Assembly (NCBI RefSeq): GCF_963931595.1
Contig: NZ_OZ007030.1
Location: 1,294,481 to 1,358,480, forward strand
Length of the DNA stretch: 64,000 nucleotides
DNA from: an uncultured Subdoligranulum sp.
GTDB lineage: Bacteria > Bacillota > Clostridia > Oscillospirales > Ruminococcaceae
Reading direction: 5' to 3'
The notes under the pieces: model-generated
Told to the model about the DNA's origin: nothing
The model's input: the letters and a program-made list of their open reading frames with translations, nothing else
Database searches by the model: none
Position numbers and translations under genes: made by a program
Shown here: one piece after another, positions 3,584-59,977 of the stretch
Position numbering within the stretch: position 1 is the stretch's first letter
How the letters are laid out: every line of letters starts with the position of its first letter

Positions 3584-4556
3584 GATATCTCCAATCCAGT
3601 TTGACGGGTTTTACCGCCGCCGCCATGGTCACGCCGTTTCCGGCCATTTTGCGAATGATCAAGGATCCGCCGCTGGCCAGCACTGCTGCCCGTTCGCAAA
3701 CATTATCCACACCGGTTACGCTGCTCACAAAGGCGGAGGCTGTAAAATTTCCCTGCACAGCATTCAGTGCCGCCGCATGGTAGGTTTGCAGAGTCCAGCC
3801 ATGTTGCTGGCAGAATTCCAGCAAACCGGGTTCCGATGCCTTGAGATCGATGCTGGCCACTCCGCAGATTGCCTGTTCCGGCAGCGGCAATCGCTGAAAT
3901 GCTGTTTCCAGTGCCGGGCAGGCCGTACCCTTGCGGCAGCCTATTCCCAGCACCGCAAACCGCGGTATCAGCCAAAGGACATCCGACGGCTGCGGCGCAA
4001 ATCCCACATAAACATCATAAGCATCCCCTGTTTCCAGCGCCACACCTTCCGGCGGCATGCCTTCTATGGGGAATTCTGTTTTGATGCGGATGGTTCTGCC
4101 CGCCAGCAGCGCGCCGGACACCCGGCGGATGCAGGGCACATGCAGCACAGCGCAATGCTGTATGCGTGCCCACGCATCCACGGCAAAAACACCGTTGGCA
4201 TCAGTGGCTGTGGTGATCACCGGCTCTGCTCCGCAGATGCAAGCCACCCGGCGGGCCAGGTCGTTGGCGCCGCCCAGATGGCCGGAGACCAGCGGCACCG
4301 CAAAGCGGGCACACTCATCCACCGCCACGACCGCCGGATCCTGCGTTTTGCCTTGCAGATACGGCGCAATGGCCCGTACAGCAATGCCCACCGCCCCCAC
4401 ATAAATCAGCGCCTTTTCCTGCGGGAAATGCGTCTGCGTCCACTGGTGCAGTGTCAACGGCTGACCGCTCCGCTGTGCTGTGCCGCCCAGTTCCTGTGCC
4501 AGCCGGCAGGCCAGTGCATAGCCTTTTTCGGTAAAGGCAAGGCAGGCCACCTTCAT
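3570..4556 (-). CDS. cbiG: Cobalt-precorrin-5A hydrolase
   Basis: Opens the delta-lactone and releases acetaldehyde from cobalt-precorrin-5A. The presence of cbiG together with cbiD and cbiK marks the oxygen-independent, early-cobalt pathway. The 328-residue protein contains DECARFAVPLVSGHLGGAND, the CbiG central-region signature, and GIGCRKGTACPALETAF at the start of the C-terminal CbiG domain. It overlaps cbiF by 4 bases at its start and cbiH by 14 at its end. Confidence 0.92.
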   Translation of the reverse strand: MKVACLAFTEKGYALACRLAQELGGTAQRSGQPLTLHQWTQTHFPQEKALIYVGAVGIAVRAIAPYLQGKTQDPAVVAVDECARFAVPLVSGHLGGANDLARRVACICGAEPVITTATDANGVFAVDAWARIQHCAVLHVPCIRRVSGALLAGRTIRIKTEFPIEGMPPEGVALETGDAYDVYVGFAPQPSDVLWLIPRFAVLGIGCRKGTACPALETAFQRLPLPEQAICGVASIDLKASEPGLLEFCQQHGWTLQTYHAAALNAVQGNFTASAFVSSVTGVDNVCERAAVLASGGSLIIRKMAGNGVTMAAAVKPVKLDWRYHDEW

Positions 4557-5314
4557 GCTTGCTTCCCCTTTCGGAATTCCGTCGTAAAGGAAGGATCATA
4601 CAGTCTGCTGCGTTCGTACTTTGCCGTGTGCAGAAAATCTCCCACCAGAATCAGCGCCGTTTTGGTGATCTGATGCGCAGCCCCGCAAGCGGCCAGTTCT
4701 CCCAGCGTGCAGCGCACCACCTTTTCCTCCGGCCAGGTTGCCTTGTACACCAGCGCCGCCGGTGTTTTTACGGTATACGCTCCCTGCAGAAGTGCATCCT
4801 GCACGGCCGGCAGCATGCCGGCCGACAGGAAAATCACCATGCTGGCACCATGTGCGGCCAGACTTTCCAGTGCTTCCCGTTCCGGCACCGGCGTCCGGCC
4901 CGCCATCCGCGTGATGATCACCGTCTGGCTGATGCCGGGCAGCGTATATTCGGCCCCCAGTGCCGCAGCAGCGCCGCAGAAGCTGGACACCCCCGGCGTG
5001 TCATCGTAGGCAATGTCCAGGCGATCCAGTGCGTCCATCTGCTCCCGGATGGCACCGTATATGCTGGCATCACCGGTATGCAGACGCACCGTTTCATGGT
5101 GCTGCCGTTCCTGCTCCTGAAAGACCGTGAGCACCTCTTCCAGTGTCATCTCTGCGCTGTTGTAGATCGAGCAACCGTCCTTTGCCAGTGCAAGCAGTGC
5201 CGGATTGACAAGGCTGCCGGCATAGATAATGCAGTCGGCCTGCTGCAGCAGTTGAGCACCGCGCAGCGTAATCAGATCCGGCGCTCCGGGACCGGCCCCC
5301 ACAAAGTGAATCAT
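4553..5314 (-). CDS. cbiF: Precorrin-4 / cobalt-precorrin-4 C11-methyltransferase
   Basis: SAM-dependent C-11 methylation. The 253-residue tetrapyrrole methylase opens MIHFVGAGPGAPDLITLRG, exactly the CbiF/CobM N-terminus. It carries RLHTGDASIYGAIREQM and DTPGVSSFCGAAAALGAEYT, which distinguish CbiF from the other methylases of this operon. The length matches the family. It lies 4 bases after the cbiL stop. Confidence 0.94.
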   Translation of the reverse strand: MIHFVGAGPGAPDLITLRGAQLLQQADCIIYAGSLVNPALLALAKDGCSIYNSAEMTLEEVLTVFQEQERQHHETVRLHTGDASIYGAIREQMDALDRLDIAYDDTPGVSSFCGAAAALGAEYTLPGISQTVIITRMAGRTPVPEREALESLAAHGASMVIFLSAGMLPAVQDALLQGAYTVKTPAALVYKATWPEEKVVRCTLGELAACGAAHQITKTALILVGDFLHTAKYERSRLYDPSFTTEFRKGKQA

Positions 5315-55289: not shown

Positions 55290-55660
55290 TCCGTGGCCCC
55301 CGTCAGAATCATGTTCAGCGCTTCGTTCAGCTTTTCCACGTCCACCTTGTCCGCCTTTCCCTGTTCAAGCGCGACCAGCCGTTCGTGGTCCGTCAGCTCT
55401 TCCGGCGATACCGTGGGCCAGTTTTCCCCCACATTCCAGTAGTCGTCCCAGCGCTCCCGGATCGCCTCCTCCGTCAGCGTTTCACCGAAACGTGCATACA
55501 CTTCATCGGCCACCCACTGGGTCACCGTTCCGCCGCTCTCGGTATCGGCCACCGGCTCTTCTTTGATGTTTTTCCGCATCCATACATCAGTTGCCCCGCT
55601 CTCCAGCACATAGAGCATAATTTCAGCGGGTTTTTCTGTGTAGTGTGCCGTCTGTCTCAC
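55286..55660 (-). CDS. Phage hypothetical protein downstream of the RT
   Basis: 124 residues from the GTG at 55660 (AAAGGAG eight bases upstream), overlapping the reverse transcriptase stop (GTGA). It is acidic with many Trp/Glu and a helical end (LVALEQGKADKVDVEKLNEA). Similar proteins occur downstream of phage tail fibres. It is not basic and not a four-helix Avd-like protein, so I do not assign it as the DGR accessory protein. Confidence 0.68.
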   Translation of the reverse strand: MRQTAHYTEKPAEIMLYVLESGATDVWMRKNIKEEPVADTESGGTVTQWVADEVYARFGETLTEEAIRERWDDYWNVGENWPTVSPEELTDHERLVALEQGKADKVDVEKLNEALNMILTGATE

Positions 55661-56855
55661 GCTTTTGTCTCCTTTCTTCTTTGTGCTTCCAGCCTGTCCA
55701 CGCGGCTGATTGACTTTTGCGCGGCGCGGCATATCGCCCGCGCGTCAAGCCGTTTCGTGGCCGTCCTGGTGTTGGTGTGTTTGAAATATCCTTTGTAGCT
55801 GCTGATCTTCCGCGCTCGCCAGTGTGGGATATATCCCAGCGTGCGCAAATTCCTTGCCGCTCTCAAAAATTGACGCCGTATTCTGCGGTAAATCCTTCGG
55901 CGTATCTTTGTGCCTTTATATCCTACCACAAAGCCCATTATGTCGACCGAACCTTGCTTTAGGTCTATCTTCCCCCACCTCTCTTTTATCCTGATTCCCA
56001 GGTTATCCAGCGCCCAGGCTTCCACCATTTTCATGGCCTTTTCCACGTCCGCCTCTCGTGACCCGATCATCACAAAATCGTCCATATAGAACAGCACGTG
56101 GCGCACCAGCTTCTGCCTTTGCACTTCCCCGTTTCTTTTTCTCCTTACCTTCTCCAGGCTCTCTATGTATCGGTACATATACGACAGCGCATAGTTGCAA
56201 AGCCATTGCGAAAGATAGGAGCCTATAGCAAGGCCAGGCGTTACAGTCTCGTGCGTCCGCAGCAGTGCCTGCACAAACCACAGCAGCGTTTCATTTTTGT
56301 GTATGTCTCTTTGCAGCAGCTTTAGGATCGTGGCCGGTTTCAGGCTTGCGTAACACTTCTGTATGTCCCCTTCCTGACATACCGGGCCTTTTTGTCTCTT
56401 CTGATCCACTTCTCCAGGTGCTTCTTTCCGTACTCCTGCCCGCGTCCCACAATGCTTGCGCACTGGAAAACGCCGATCTTGGCGTCGAACAGCTCCCCCA
56501 TGGCACCCACTGCAACGTAGTCCATGCACTGCTGCATTGCCGTCGCCTGGCACAGATCGCGGATTTTTCCGCTTAGTCCGTCCCGCCTCTTAAATGTGCG
56601 CAGCGGGCGCAGCTCCAGGCGTTTCTCCCTGATCCGCCGCGCCACTTCCTCCGCTATGCCTTGTGTGGCTTTCAGCAGTCTGTTATAGTCCTGTGCCGCC
56701 GCATCTTGCAGGACTTGCTCCTTTGTCATTCCTCCGTACAGCTCCAAAAGTTCTACGAAACCATTTTCTTTCCACCTCCTGCTCATGCACTGAAATATAA
56801 ATCCGCCTATCTGTTCGGGATCGGTTATGTCTATCTTTTTGCAATAGGTTTTCAT
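55657..56855 (-). pseudogene. DGR reverse transcriptase, interrupted by a one-base frameshift
   Basis: Copies the template RNA into adenine-mutagenised cDNA for retrohoming into the fibre gene. Two overlapping frames (56855-56340 and 56553-55657) join into one ~398-residue RT if a single G is added to the GGGG run at 56367-56370. The junction then reads KARYVRKGDIQKCYASL, the first catalytic Asp motif. Other motifs: IGSYLSQWLCNYALS (the IGxxxSQ motif typical of DGR RTs, ~215) and VLFYMDDFVMIGS (YMDD catalytic box, ~258). The start follows GGGGAG. It lies directly downstream of the template repeat. As sequenced, translation stops at 56340. Confidence 0.9.
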
Positions 56856-57091: not shown

Positions 57092-57248
57092 CCAAATGCG
57101 CCCGCCAGGCCGTTCCAGTTCGCGTTGCCGCAGGAATTGTTCGCGTTGCCGCAGGACAAGCCACAATTGCCCCCGTTGTTCAAATTGGCCCAGGCCCACC
57201 ACGCATAGACGCGGGAGCCAGCCGCCGGAACATAGACGGCAGCCCGGT
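57092..57248 (-). repeat. DGR template repeat (TR)
   Basis: Non-coding copy of the 3' end of the fibre gene, aligned base for base with 57333-57489 at an offset of 241. Read on the minus strand it has twelve adenine-bearing sense codons, ten of them Asn (AAC/AAT), the classic substrate for adenine mutagenesis, and it ends with a stop-like GGT TGA. Within 57096-57247 every mismatch with the VR falls on a coding-strand adenine of the TR (14 of 23). Confidence 0.96.
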
Positions 57249-57264
57249 GACACGCTGCATACCC

Positions 57265-57289
57265 CATAAAAAGGGGACGCTGTCCCCTC
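57265..57289 (-). terminator. Terminator downstream of the fibre gene
   Basis: Minus strand AGGGGAC-AGC-GTCCCCT followed by TTTTTATGG. It separates the fibre transcript from the template repeat, 10 bases past the fibre stop codon. Confidence 0.78.
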
Positions 57290-57310
57290 TATGCCGGATT
57301 AACCGGCATA
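57290..57310 (-). other. 8-bp inverted repeat just past the VR, across the fibre stop codon
   Basis: TATGCCGG (minus strand, 57310-57303) and CCGGCATA (57297-57290) form a perfect 8-bp stem with loop TTAAT, which contains the TAA stop. A hairpin/cruciform with an 8-bp stem just downstream of the VR is a known DGR target-recognition element in Bordetella phage BPP-1. The equivalence here is inferred. Confidence 0.7.
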
Positions 57311-59977
57311 TTCACCCCTGTTTGACCCGGACCCACAAGCGCCCGCCAGGCCGTGCCAGCTCGCGAAGCCGCAGGAACTGATCGCGTTGCCGCAGGACAA
57401 GCCACAAGCGCCCCCGTAGAACAAACTGGCCCAGGCCCACCACGCATAGACGCGGGAGCCAGCCGCCGGAACAAAGACGGCAGCCCGGCAGCCGGTCGTG
57501 GACCCCGCCGGGCTTCCGGCGGCGACGGCGTACATATTGCCGTCTGCGTCGATCTCCACGTCCTTCTGGTACAGCCAGGCTGCAGCCTGGTTTGTCGGCA
57601 TGGTCAGCACGACATGAGAGCGCACGGCGTTGGAAGTAATGGACGTTGCGATCTGCGCAGCCTGGCGGAAACACACAAGCCGGTGCGTGTAGGCGTCCGC
57701 CGTCAGCACCTGCTCCGTCAGCTGGTCCGCGCTGATCGCATACCCGCCGGGCTGGCACTCCAGCAGCTGGAGTACAAACGGCTCCTTGCCGGACGTGCAG
57801 CTGGTCGGGCTTCCGTCTGCTCCCTTCACGTTGTCACAGCTTCCGCTGTGCCAGGGCATGGTAGAAATATAGGTTTCACCGGCCACCGTGTTGAACGCGG
57901 CGGGCGCGTCCAGGTTCAAAGCCTTGTAGCTCGTTCCGTTCACCTGCACGTCCTCAATGCTCAAAATACGCACCTTGTCGGCCAGCGCACGCATGGAGGC
58001 CACGCCGCGATCCGTAGACGTTCCCGTGCCCTTGTCTCCCACGGACACGGTGCTGCCCACCAAATACCCGGACGCATCCGACGCCGTCAGCAGCACCCGC
58101 TTTACGCCGCTTTCGGAAACCTTTGCAATTTTCTGGTAGTTGTAATTGCTGCATCCCTCCAGAGTGCCGGAGTTCCCCTTTTTGCCGTACTTCATCCAGA
58201 ACATTCTCATGCGGAAAGAAAGATCACACCCGCAAATTCCGCAGTAGTCTGCGCCGCGTTTGCGCCACTCCGTTGCCTGGCTCTGCATGCTGATGAAGTT
58301 TACGGCGGCCAGGCCAGACGCGCTGGTCAGCTTCCCGTCCGCTCCACGTCCGGCCATGTACTTTGCGTGTACCACATAGGGCCGGACGCTGCCATCCAGT
58401 GCCACGCCTTCCGGCAGCGGTCTGTAGGCGTTTGCATCCGTCACAAAGTTGGCGGGTGCGGCGCGGTAGTAGTGGTAGTAGTAGCTGTCGTCCTCGGTAT
58501 CGGCATACCACCCGGTTTTCTGCGCCACGCCTACCATGCCATACTGGCCGGACAGCAGAGCTGCGCGGGTTACGCCGTTTACCCCTGCCACAGCCTTGAT
58601 TGCCACCTCTTTGTCCTCGATCTCGTAGGCCACCTCAACAGCCCAGAACGCGCCGTGCTCAAAGTAGGGGTCCTGCGCCTCTGTCGTGTTGGTTCCAGGC
58701 GTCGCCGCGCCCAGTTCGGCAGAGGACTGGATCAGTTCGCCGTCCGACGTAGCGCTGGTGTCGAACTTATAGAACTTTACGCCGTAGGTATTGTCATCCC
58801 ACAGCAGGGTGAACCAGCGGCGCAAAATGTTACCCACGGCAACCCCCTGGGCTGCCAGGGCGGCGGCATACTGCTGGAAAATCTCGCTTGTGTTCTCTCC
58901 ATTCAGCCGTGCCGCCCAAATGGAGTCCACGGCTCCGTCTGTTGTCCATCCCTCCACCGCCTTTGCAATCTCTTCCGCTTTCTCTCTTTCCTGGCTTGCC
59001 AGCTGTGCCTGTTTTTCTGCTTCCTGCTGGTTTCCTTCCGCGTTTTCCTGGGCTGTTTCCGCTGCCGCTTTCGCGGCCTCTGCGGCAGCTTTCGCGGCCT
59101 CTGCGGCGGTCTTTTCCTGCCCCGCCTGGTTCTTTGCCGCTTCGGCTGCGTCAGCCTCTGTCGCGGCGTTTTGGGCCTCCTGGGCGGCCTGGTTTTTCAG
59201 CTCCTGGCACTGCGCCAGCGTCTGCTCCAGCTGCTCCTGGTTCTCCAGCGCATCCTCCGCCCGCTTTGCTGCATTGTTTGCCGCCTCCGTTGCGGCTTCC
59301 GTTTCCCTGATCGCGGCCTGTGTGTCAGTCTGCCTCTTTGTCTCCGCTGCGGCTCTGGCGCTCTCTGCCTTTGCTCTGGCGCTCTCTGCTGACTTTCTGG
59401 AGCTTTCCGCCGCTGCCCTGGAGTTTTCGGCTGCTGCTCTGGCGCTCTCTGCCTCTTCCCGGGCTGTCTCTGCCTTCGCGCGGGCTTTCTCCGCCTCCAC
59501 GCGCATTCTTTCGACGGTTGCCCATTCCTCCATGTCCGCATTGATCTGCGCCCACTTTTCGTCGAACGCCGTCATTTCGTTGGAGGACAAGATCGCGCTT
59601 TCGTCCCGGTTGTTCTTTCCCACCTTGATCGTGAAAGCGCAAGAGGTCAAAATCTGGCTGCTGTCTTTCGCTCTGATCTCTACCTCGCAGGTCACTTCCC
59701 CGGGCACCGCAAGTACCTGGTTTGTCAGCTCAACCAAAATGCGGTTGCCTTCGTCGATCTTCGCGGCGTTGAAAGCAAATTTCCCGTCCGGCTTTGTGAA
59801 GTTTGCGATCAGGTCCGCATCCTCTGGCGGCTCATACTCTTTCCCATCGTCCACGATCAGCACCGAAACAAAACGGGTCGCTTTATCCCCCTGTTTTGCT
59901 TGCACCAGGTAGTCCTTTGTTTCTGCGGACGCGTCAATGTCGATCCGTGTAATCAGCACGGGCAATTTGTTTGCCAT
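57299..59977 (-). CDS. Phage fibre/baseplate protein, DGR-diversified receptor-binding candidate
   Basis: 892 residues. N-terminal ~130 residues (ITRIDIDASAETKDYLVQAK, FVSVLIVDDGKEYEPPEDAD) resemble BppU-like baseplate upper proteins. A long Ala/Glu coiled coil (~150-345) follows. Then comes a large folded C-terminal region with repeated Cys and aromatic residues (YCGICGCDLSFRMRMFW) that ends in the variable segment, where RVYAWWAWA precedes the diversified positions. It closes with GSGSNRGEYAG. It is probably the host-binding tip whose last ~50 residues vary. A C-type-lectin-like fold is usual for DGR targets but was not verified. Confidence 0.9.
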   Translation of the reverse strand: MANKLPVLITRIDIDASAETKDYLVQAKQGDKATRFVSVLIVDDGKEYEPPEDADLIANFTKPDGKFAFNAAKIDEGNRILVELTNQVLAVPGEVTCEVEIRAKDSSQILTSCAFTIKVGKNNRDESAILSSNEMTAFDEKWAQINADMEEWATVERMRVEAEKARAKAETAREEAESARAAAENSRAAAESSRKSAESARAKAESARAAAETKRQTDTQAAIRETEAATEAANNAAKRAEDALENQEQLEQTLAQCQELKNQAAQEAQNAATEADAAEAAKNQAGQEKTAAEAAKAAAEAAKAAAETAQENAEGNQQEAEKQAQLASQEREKAEEIAKAVEGWTTDGAVDSIWAARLNGENTSEIFQQYAAALAAQGVAVGNILRRWFTLLWDDNTYGVKFYKFDTSATSDGELIQSSAELGAATPGTNTTEAQDPYFEHGAFWAVEVAYEIEDKEVAIKAVAGVNGVTRAALLSGQYGMVGVAQKTGWYADTEDDSYYYHYYRAAPANFVTDANAYRPLPEGVALDGSVRPYVVHAKYMAGRGADGKLTSASGLAAVNFISMQSQATEWRKRGADYCGICGCDLSFRMRMFWMKYGKKGNSGTLEGCSNYNYQKIAKVSESGVKRVLLTASDASGYLVGSTVSVGDKGTGTSTDRGVASMRALADKVRILSIEDVQVNGTSYKALNLDAPAAFNTVAGETYISTMPWHSGSCDNVKGADGSPTSCTSGKEPFVLQLLECQPGGYAISADQLTEQVLTADAYTHRLVCFRQAAQIATSITSNAVRSHVVLTMPTNQAAAWLYQKDVEIDADGNMYAVAAGSPAGSTTGCRAAVFVPAAGSRVYAWWAWASLFYGGACGLSCGNAISSCGFASWHGLAGACGSGSNRGEYAG
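57333..57489 (-). repeat. DGR variable repeat (VR) in the fibre gene
   Basis: 3' end of the fibre coding sequence. Compared with the TR the codon changes are Tyr to Phe, Asn to Ser (three), Asn to Phe (two), and Asn to Tyr, Ala, Ile and His, plus one silent GCA to GCT. One Asn is unchanged. The coding 3' edge contains GGCCTGGCGGGCGC (57352-57339), a GC-rich block like the initiation-of-mutagenic-homing (IMH) sequence of known DGRs. Confidence 0.96.

Follow-up and report, generated by a model that had tools for sequence, protein, structure and literature searches.

A putative target-site element of a box and two hairpins beyond the variable repeat in a family of phage diversity-generating retroelements

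Within the window analysed here, 64,000 nt of contig NZ_OZ007030.1 from an uncultured Subdoligranulum sp., lies a diversity-generating retroelement (DGR), in which a reverse transcriptase (RT) is accompanied by a template repeat (TR) and by a variable repeat (VR) at the end of a target gene. Just past the VR, at 57318-57272 on the minus strand, we found a composite element consisting of a short box and two hairpins, H1 and H2. Its position, its conservation, the covariation of its stems, its near-absence from TR flanks and the activity of sister DGRs together point to a target-site element conserved across related phage DGRs. We consider it probable that the element, acting as DNA, marks the VR for integration of cDNA and thereby raises homing. 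The homing role is one we infer by analogy, as experiment exists for the hairpin of phage BPP-1 only, and likewise it would be DNA rather than RNA that acts, with a partner reading the box.

The target gene, a prophage tail gene (57299-59977, minus strand, as are all features given below), encodes 892 aa with a BppU N-terminal domain, as judged from a domain match and the list of open reading frames (ORFs). The VR occupies its 3' end (57337-57488), and the TR lies at 57096-57247 with a 3' flank that holds neither box nor hairpins. Aligning VR 57488-57337 with TR 57247-57096 gave 152 nt in which 14 of 14 mismatches fall at TR adenines, and over the first 150 nt (57488-57339) the figure is 13 of 13; the window thus holds a TR/VR pair differing at TR adenines, as is required of a DGR. 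The original prediction, made from the letters alone, had the VR ending in a 14-base GC-rich block shared exactly with the TR, after which the two copies diverge. The block, GGCCTGGCGGGCGC at 57352-57339, is indeed identical in both copies and sits in a position like that of the initiation of mutagenic homing (IMH) sequence, with 13 of its 14 bases G or C. The divergence right after it holds by strict identity, while two more bases belong to the homology if position 57338, where A has become T, is taken as a mutagenised adenine.

From the end of the VR the order is 18 nt, box, H1, GAGGGG, H2 with a CCCC run, and TTTTT. The box GGGGTGAA (57311-57318) begins with G-run 1 (57318-57315) and is conserved in relatives. 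H1 (57290-57310) reads TATGCCGG-TTAAT-CCGGCATA, an 8 bp stem with a 5-nt loop, and the in-frame TAA stop of the target gene (57299-57301) lies inside this loop. GAGGGG (57284-57289) follows directly, and H2 (57272-57288) is GAGGGGAC-AGC-GTCCCCT (AGGGGAC-AGC-GTCCCCT), with G-run 2 at 57287-57284 and the C-run at 57276-57273. The T5 run after H2 (57268-57272) is terminator-like in the window, but this is not general. The perfect 8-bp inverted repeat with TAA in its loop had been described exactly as it stands. Its spacing had been given as 22 bases past the VR; in fact 28 nt (57338-57311) separate the shared block from H1, placing H1 26-28 nt past the VR. Moreover, the hairpin proposed at the time is the middle piece of the composite, and both the box before it and H2 after it had been missed.

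Both hairpins appear in the RNAfold centroid structure, with a z-score of -1.94 and 10 of 200 shuffles folding equally well, which taken alone is a weak statistic. The 64 kb hold comparable perfect inverted repeats (stems of 8 bp or more, loops of 3-8 nt) at 18 separate sites, or 27 rows if nested ones are counted, and H1 alone is therefore only mildly unusual. It is the comparison with relatives and not the hairpin itself that gives H1 its significance. The Rfam search found no family at the element, and a DNA search of the phage collection with this stretch gave no match. We found no description of the order box, hairpin, GAGGGG, hairpin in the literature, with most subscription papers and figures out of reach.

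To define relatives we used similarity of the RT alone, with no DNA pattern, which gave 90 loci, 74 of them with TR/VR and 59 with unique VR flanks (the RT-found set). The set comprises L015, which has the genus code of the window genome, L003, six human-gut phage scaffolds (L023-L028), contig L151 from a Clostridiales metagenome-assembled genome, and 80 IMG/VR loci added through the RT alignment A1. Near-identical flanks and elements were dropped, as was L004, which starts inside the RT and has no VR in its contig, and loci with more distant RTs (L017-L022 and L410-L424) were examined separately, outside this count. The order GGGGTGAAT...AGAGGGG was first spotted by eye in alignments of these relatives. 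GGGGTGA[AG] is present within 100 nt in 54 of the 59 unique VR 3' flanks, and GAGGGG follows the box in 54 of 54 cases; CCCC occurs within the next 22 nt in 44 of 48 unique elements, against 2 in a comparison window further on. The five flanks without the exact box are three with a near-variant (L023, L171 and L215), one with two G-runs (L025) and one with neither (L227, 3976-4072), whose RT nevertheless falls within the box clade.

Over all loci, which are partly selected by pattern, 95 of the 105 unique flanks past a VR have the box, as does 1 of the 109 past a TR; the complement of the box, TTCACCCC, was found in 0 of 82 cases within 400 nt after the TR. A scan of IMG/VR with GGGGTGAAT-gap-AGAGGGG returned an adenine-specific VR ending 7-39 nt upstream in 46 of the 120 matches listed and an RT of the window kind near 50 of them. 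A scrambled control pattern of similar make-up, which additionally demands a C-run, returned 0 VRs and 0 RTs among 120 matches listed. In an RT tree built with a quick method from 71 of 110 RT rows, where the near-variant boxes were labelled as box type, a clade of 51 rows with support 100 contains 49 box-type DGRs, one of the two-G-run type and one without either. Four further box-type DGRs fall outside this clade, among relatives of Butyrivibrio phage Arawn and Faecalibacterium phage FP_Epona. The core of the original prediction, a target-recognition hairpin past the VR, is hence well supported, with the element present on the 3' side of almost every VR among relatives and of hardly any TR.

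The stems were then examined for covariation. Pairing in H1 was anchored at the box and at GAGGGG, leaving no alignment freedom, and the resulting counts, both in the RT-found set and in a larger set of 84, were not selected for pairing. Pairs 1-6 are Watson-Crick in 45/48, 44/46, 37/44, 37/44, 40/44 and 35/42 cases in the RT-found set. For the 42 long elements the counts are 42, 42, 36, 36, 39 and 35, as against maxima with shuffled 3' arms of 42, 27, 25, 20, 26 and 23; pair 1 is near invariant and so uninformative. All four pair types occur at pairs 2, 4, 5 and 6, while pair 3 has three types in the RT-found set and four in the larger set, and the pairing is lost when the partner is shifted by one or two bases. 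The inner pair of H2 covaries as well (54 of 63, against 19.9 when shuffled, with a shuffled maximum of 31). Another alignment, A2, gave a covariation score of 0.556 against 0.138 when shuffled; it should be noted that A2 was limited to elements with a stem of 5 bp or more (29 of 84), and since its rows were picked for their stems, its score and pair counts are biased. The stem is thus kept by structure and not by sequence. It had been proposed that the stem should be conserved in relatives despite base changes, and this expectation was borne out: the H1 positions change pair type among relatives and still pair, far more often than when shuffled. For H3, in which G-run 1 would pair over a longer range with the C-run, the flanking pairs give neither support nor exclusion.

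Next to its TR the window encodes an RT with the motifs GLAIGSYLSQW and YMDD. The first agrees with xGxxxSQ, a motif that marks DGR RTs. The RT does not form one intact frame, as two overlapping pieces in different frames cover 55657-56855. The N-terminal part (56340-56855) matches phrog_1423 at profile positions 141-233 and A1 at model positions 8-177, and the C-terminal part (55657-56553), carrying IGSYLSQ and MDD, matches PF00078, phrog_1423 at 229-452 and A1 at 140-403. The split may reflect a mutation, a sequencing error or a programmed frameshift, and because of it the DGR copy in the window may be inactive. There is no further RT above the A1 search threshold in the window genome, so this site may currently be without a functional enzyme. 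No avd-named match was found among the larger window proteins, of which 8 were compared with Pfam, 6 with PHROGs and 5 with NCBIfam.

DGRs with the element are at work in nature, since VRs of sister elements change at TR adenines. After removing duplicates of one contig we counted 14 distinct pairs of sister contigs with a shared TR and differing VRs; all differences are at TR adenines in 12 of the 14, and the element is identical in 13 of the 14. For L196/L197 this applies to 19 of 19 VR differences, for L198/L199 to 17 of 17 and for L190/L191 to 13 of 13. The loci with the same TR and VRs differing only at TR adenines are L184/L185, L189/L222/L223, L190/L191, L196/L197, L198/L199/L206, L203/L204, L229/L230 and L048/L124/L132.

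Among known target sites the nearest comparison is BPP-1. According to the accessible parts of the published work, inverted repeats past the VR are required there for efficient retrohoming, the stem acts by structure and not by sequence, loop and distance matter, and lengthening the loop by as little as 2 nt brings activity near background (PMC3240598); homing in E. coli is strongly reduced by deleting the repeat, as far as the portion of that report at hand goes (PMC12875486). The BPP-1 hairpin, GCGGGGCC-GAAA-GGCCCCGC, begins 4 nt after the annotated VR end. Common to both systems are a GC-rich shared VR end, an inverted repeat just 3' of the VR, an 8 bp stem, a stop at the hairpin and a G4/C4 stem core, which here is found in H2. 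BPP-1 differs in having a single hairpin with a GAAA loop at 4 nt, an IMH of 14 bp that is GC-only, and an avd gene, whereas the window has box GGGGTGAA with two hairpins, a 5-nt TTAAT loop in H1, a divergent RT and no avd match among the proteins tested. The original prediction saw its hairpin as mirroring that of BPP-1. As a counterpart by position and covariation this stands; yet H2 resembles the BPP-1 stem more than does the H1 that was described, and H1 with the box is an additional, clade-specific part. The spacing is longer than the 4 nt of BPP-1, as had been noted, but it falls inside the 4-34 bp past the VR given for phage DGR hairpins in the part of PMC3240598 available.

The hairpins of other phage DGRs, to the extent shown for Fig. 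5 of Guo et al. 2011, also have GC-rich stems of 7-10 bp at 4-34 bp past the VR, a range into which H1 fits with 8 bp at 26-28 nt. Those hairpins have 4-nt GRNA loops, in contrast to TTAAT in H1 and AGC in H2. The loop had been said to differ from that of BPP-1, and most relatives depart from GRNA too: among 44 perfect H1 hairpins the loops are mostly of 3 and 4 nt, with G first and A last in 30 (GAA 9, GTAA 6, GTA 4), and GRNA is found in 3. TTAAT is one of five 5-nt loops, L015 having TTTAC. The nanoarchaeal DUSEL4 DGRs, as far as the available part of PMC4372165 describes them, have hairpin loops of 3 nt of the form G-R-A, comparable to GAA as the commonest H1 loop here, and a TGGGGT motif at the IMH; they differ in that the hairpin is inside the gene, and that part describes no order of box, H1, GAGGGG and H2. 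Group IIC introns are likewise retroelements using a terminator-like stem-loop beside the target (PMC3240598, in the portion consulted), but they insert by ribozyme and without adenine mutagenesis of a repeat.

In the mechanism we suggest, the element would be extruded as DNA in a supercoiled or transiently single-stranded target and would mark the VR, and not the TR, for cDNA integration, raising the efficiency of retrohoming, while the shared GC-rich end of the VR would supply homology. In the literature examined, part of it seen incompletely, the discrimination of target from template and the role of the hairpin are known experimentally for one phage, BPP-1. A covarying element recognisable by pattern would provide a second and quite different target site, would aid the finding of remote VRs, and allows the question to be divided into box, H1, H2 and G-runs.

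A related form is present where the box is missing. Past the VR of DGRs with related RTs but without the box, 10 of 26 unique flanks have G4-6, about 3 nt, G4-5, a loop and C4-5 (L410, L415, L420, L471, L472, L474, L476, L478, L479 and L025), and the linker is exactly 3 nt in 7 of the 10; among TR flanks the count is 0 of 26. In 394 bacterial genomes of the same order the box accompanies all three RTs with scores above 400 bits, and six of eight lower-scoring RTs with TR/VR have the two-G-run form, the window's own being left out; the locus table holds 15 of 17 loci, without the two RT pieces of the window. As both flank types show them, two G-runs and one C-run are common to the two forms. 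The length of G-run 1 equals that of the C-run in 56 of 80 elements against 45.7 when shuffled, and in 9 of 10 of the two-G-run type against 5.1, numbers from which relatedness has not been removed; this hints that G-run 1 touches the C-run or the stem it forms. We speculate, with considerable doubt, that a portable fold of two G-runs and one C-run exists, in which G-run 1 would keep the target open for cDNA, either as the third strand of an intramolecular G*G-C triplex or by competing for the C-run. H1 would then bring G-run 1, the start of GGGGTGAA, onto the G-run 2:C-run stem of H2, and in the other DGRs the 3-nt linker would take the place of H1. Were this true, one structured DNA signal would serve both DGR sites and a dispersed chromosomal repeat, described next.

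A covariance model, R1, found the window site with 52.2 bits, the window being among its build rows, and three further DGR sites among the 394 genomes. It also found intergenic chromosomal copies with the same order and a longer H2, that is GGG(G)TGAAT-hairpin-AGAGGG(G)-hairpin-CCC(C), 14 of them in genome G448 and 3 in G077, with single copies in G052, G443:C30, G177 and G207 (loci examined: L428, L443, L447 and L450-L454 in G448; L432, L445 and L448 in G077; L429, L444, L433 and L434). The dispersed copies examined have no TR/VR, there is no RT of the window clade in G077, G052, G177 or G207, and an Rfam search of six dispersed loci found no family. Since these copies stand without a DGR the module is not exclusive to DGRs, and that it turns up again as a dispersed repeat is a hint of a recognition partner that is not part of a DGR.

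Such copies could mean that the element is a mobile host repeat, similar to repetitive extragenic palindromic (REP) sequences, carried by descent behind tail genes and only incidentally linked to DGRs. This seems very unlikely to us, as the element keeps within a narrow range from the VR end at DGR loci (mostly 7-39 nt), the best-scoring genome matches are DGR sites with an RT nearby, and the window genome has a single copy at E up to 1. PF01797 (Y1 transposase) was found in three of eight genomes (G000, which is the window genome, G448 and G207) and is absent from G077, G443, G052, G177 and G234; the first four of these, which carry dispersed matches, speak against a host repeat. With the family absent from five of eight genomes, a REP element with its REP-associated tyrosine transposase (RAYT) found no support. 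Eight PF01797 matches were seen in G000, five with identical score, which suggests a multi-copy IS200-type family.

The intergenic position of the dispersed copies would also suit H1 and H2 as RNA signals at the 3' end of the target mRNA, for termination, stability or translation stop, with no part in homing, and so would the T5 run in the window and the stop codon, which falls within H1 in 34 of 48 RT-found elements (48 of 81 in the larger set). As 34 of 48 share it, a stop within the hairpin is usual for the clade and nothing specific to the window phage. We regard an RNA signal as an unlikely explanation, because a T-rich tail is present in only 20 of 80 elements, the stop precedes the box in 26 of 81, L445, L447 and L453 (3 of the 13 dispersed copies listed) have all flanking ORFs on the opposite strand, and the box stands at a narrow distance in VR flanks but in 1 of 109 TR flanks. 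H2 as an intrinsic terminator was rejected with the same 20 of 80 tails, and a terminator pattern scan did not list it. The box reads Arg-Gly-Glu in its commonest frame, and selection on the protein therefore needs considering. That conservation comes only from this encoded tail, or that H1 is a chance hairpin among the 18 comparable repeats, we find scarcely credible. Covariation contradicts both, and the box is kept where the stop comes before it (11 of 48 RT-found elements and the 26 of 81 mentioned) or where the TGA within the box is itself the stop (2 of 48 and 6 of 81); as it is kept where the stop precedes it, coding alone does not explain the box.

Several observations weigh against a target-site element with a role in homing. 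By BLAST, 78 of 80 target proteins encoded upstream of the VR are linked through one another into a single family, so the element failed to prove independent of the target-gene family, and common descent of target 3' ends is therefore not separated from selection by the RT; given the covariation of the H1 stem, a nucleic-acid function is still needed despite the shared family. The dispersed copies found by R1 lie away from any VR, and several more distant DGRs have no box. The H1 loop of 5 nt departs from GRNA, which matters given the sensitivity of BPP-1 to loop length, and we found no homing experiment on the window clade in the literature.

Some variation was also seen among the relatives. 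In a subgroup (L192, L194, L203, L204, L212, L219 and L229) GGGGTGA[AG] goes with an H1 that is very short; H2 is for instance GAGGGGGC-GAAA-GCCCCCTC, and a further inverted repeat lies between the VR and the box. Among the loci examined, no TR of the window clade serves two VRs, which would have given an internal replicate. At L017, with a more distant RT, one TR matches two neighbouring adenine-specific VR-like stretches, 4511-4625 and 4759-4842, with 15 and 17 A changes.

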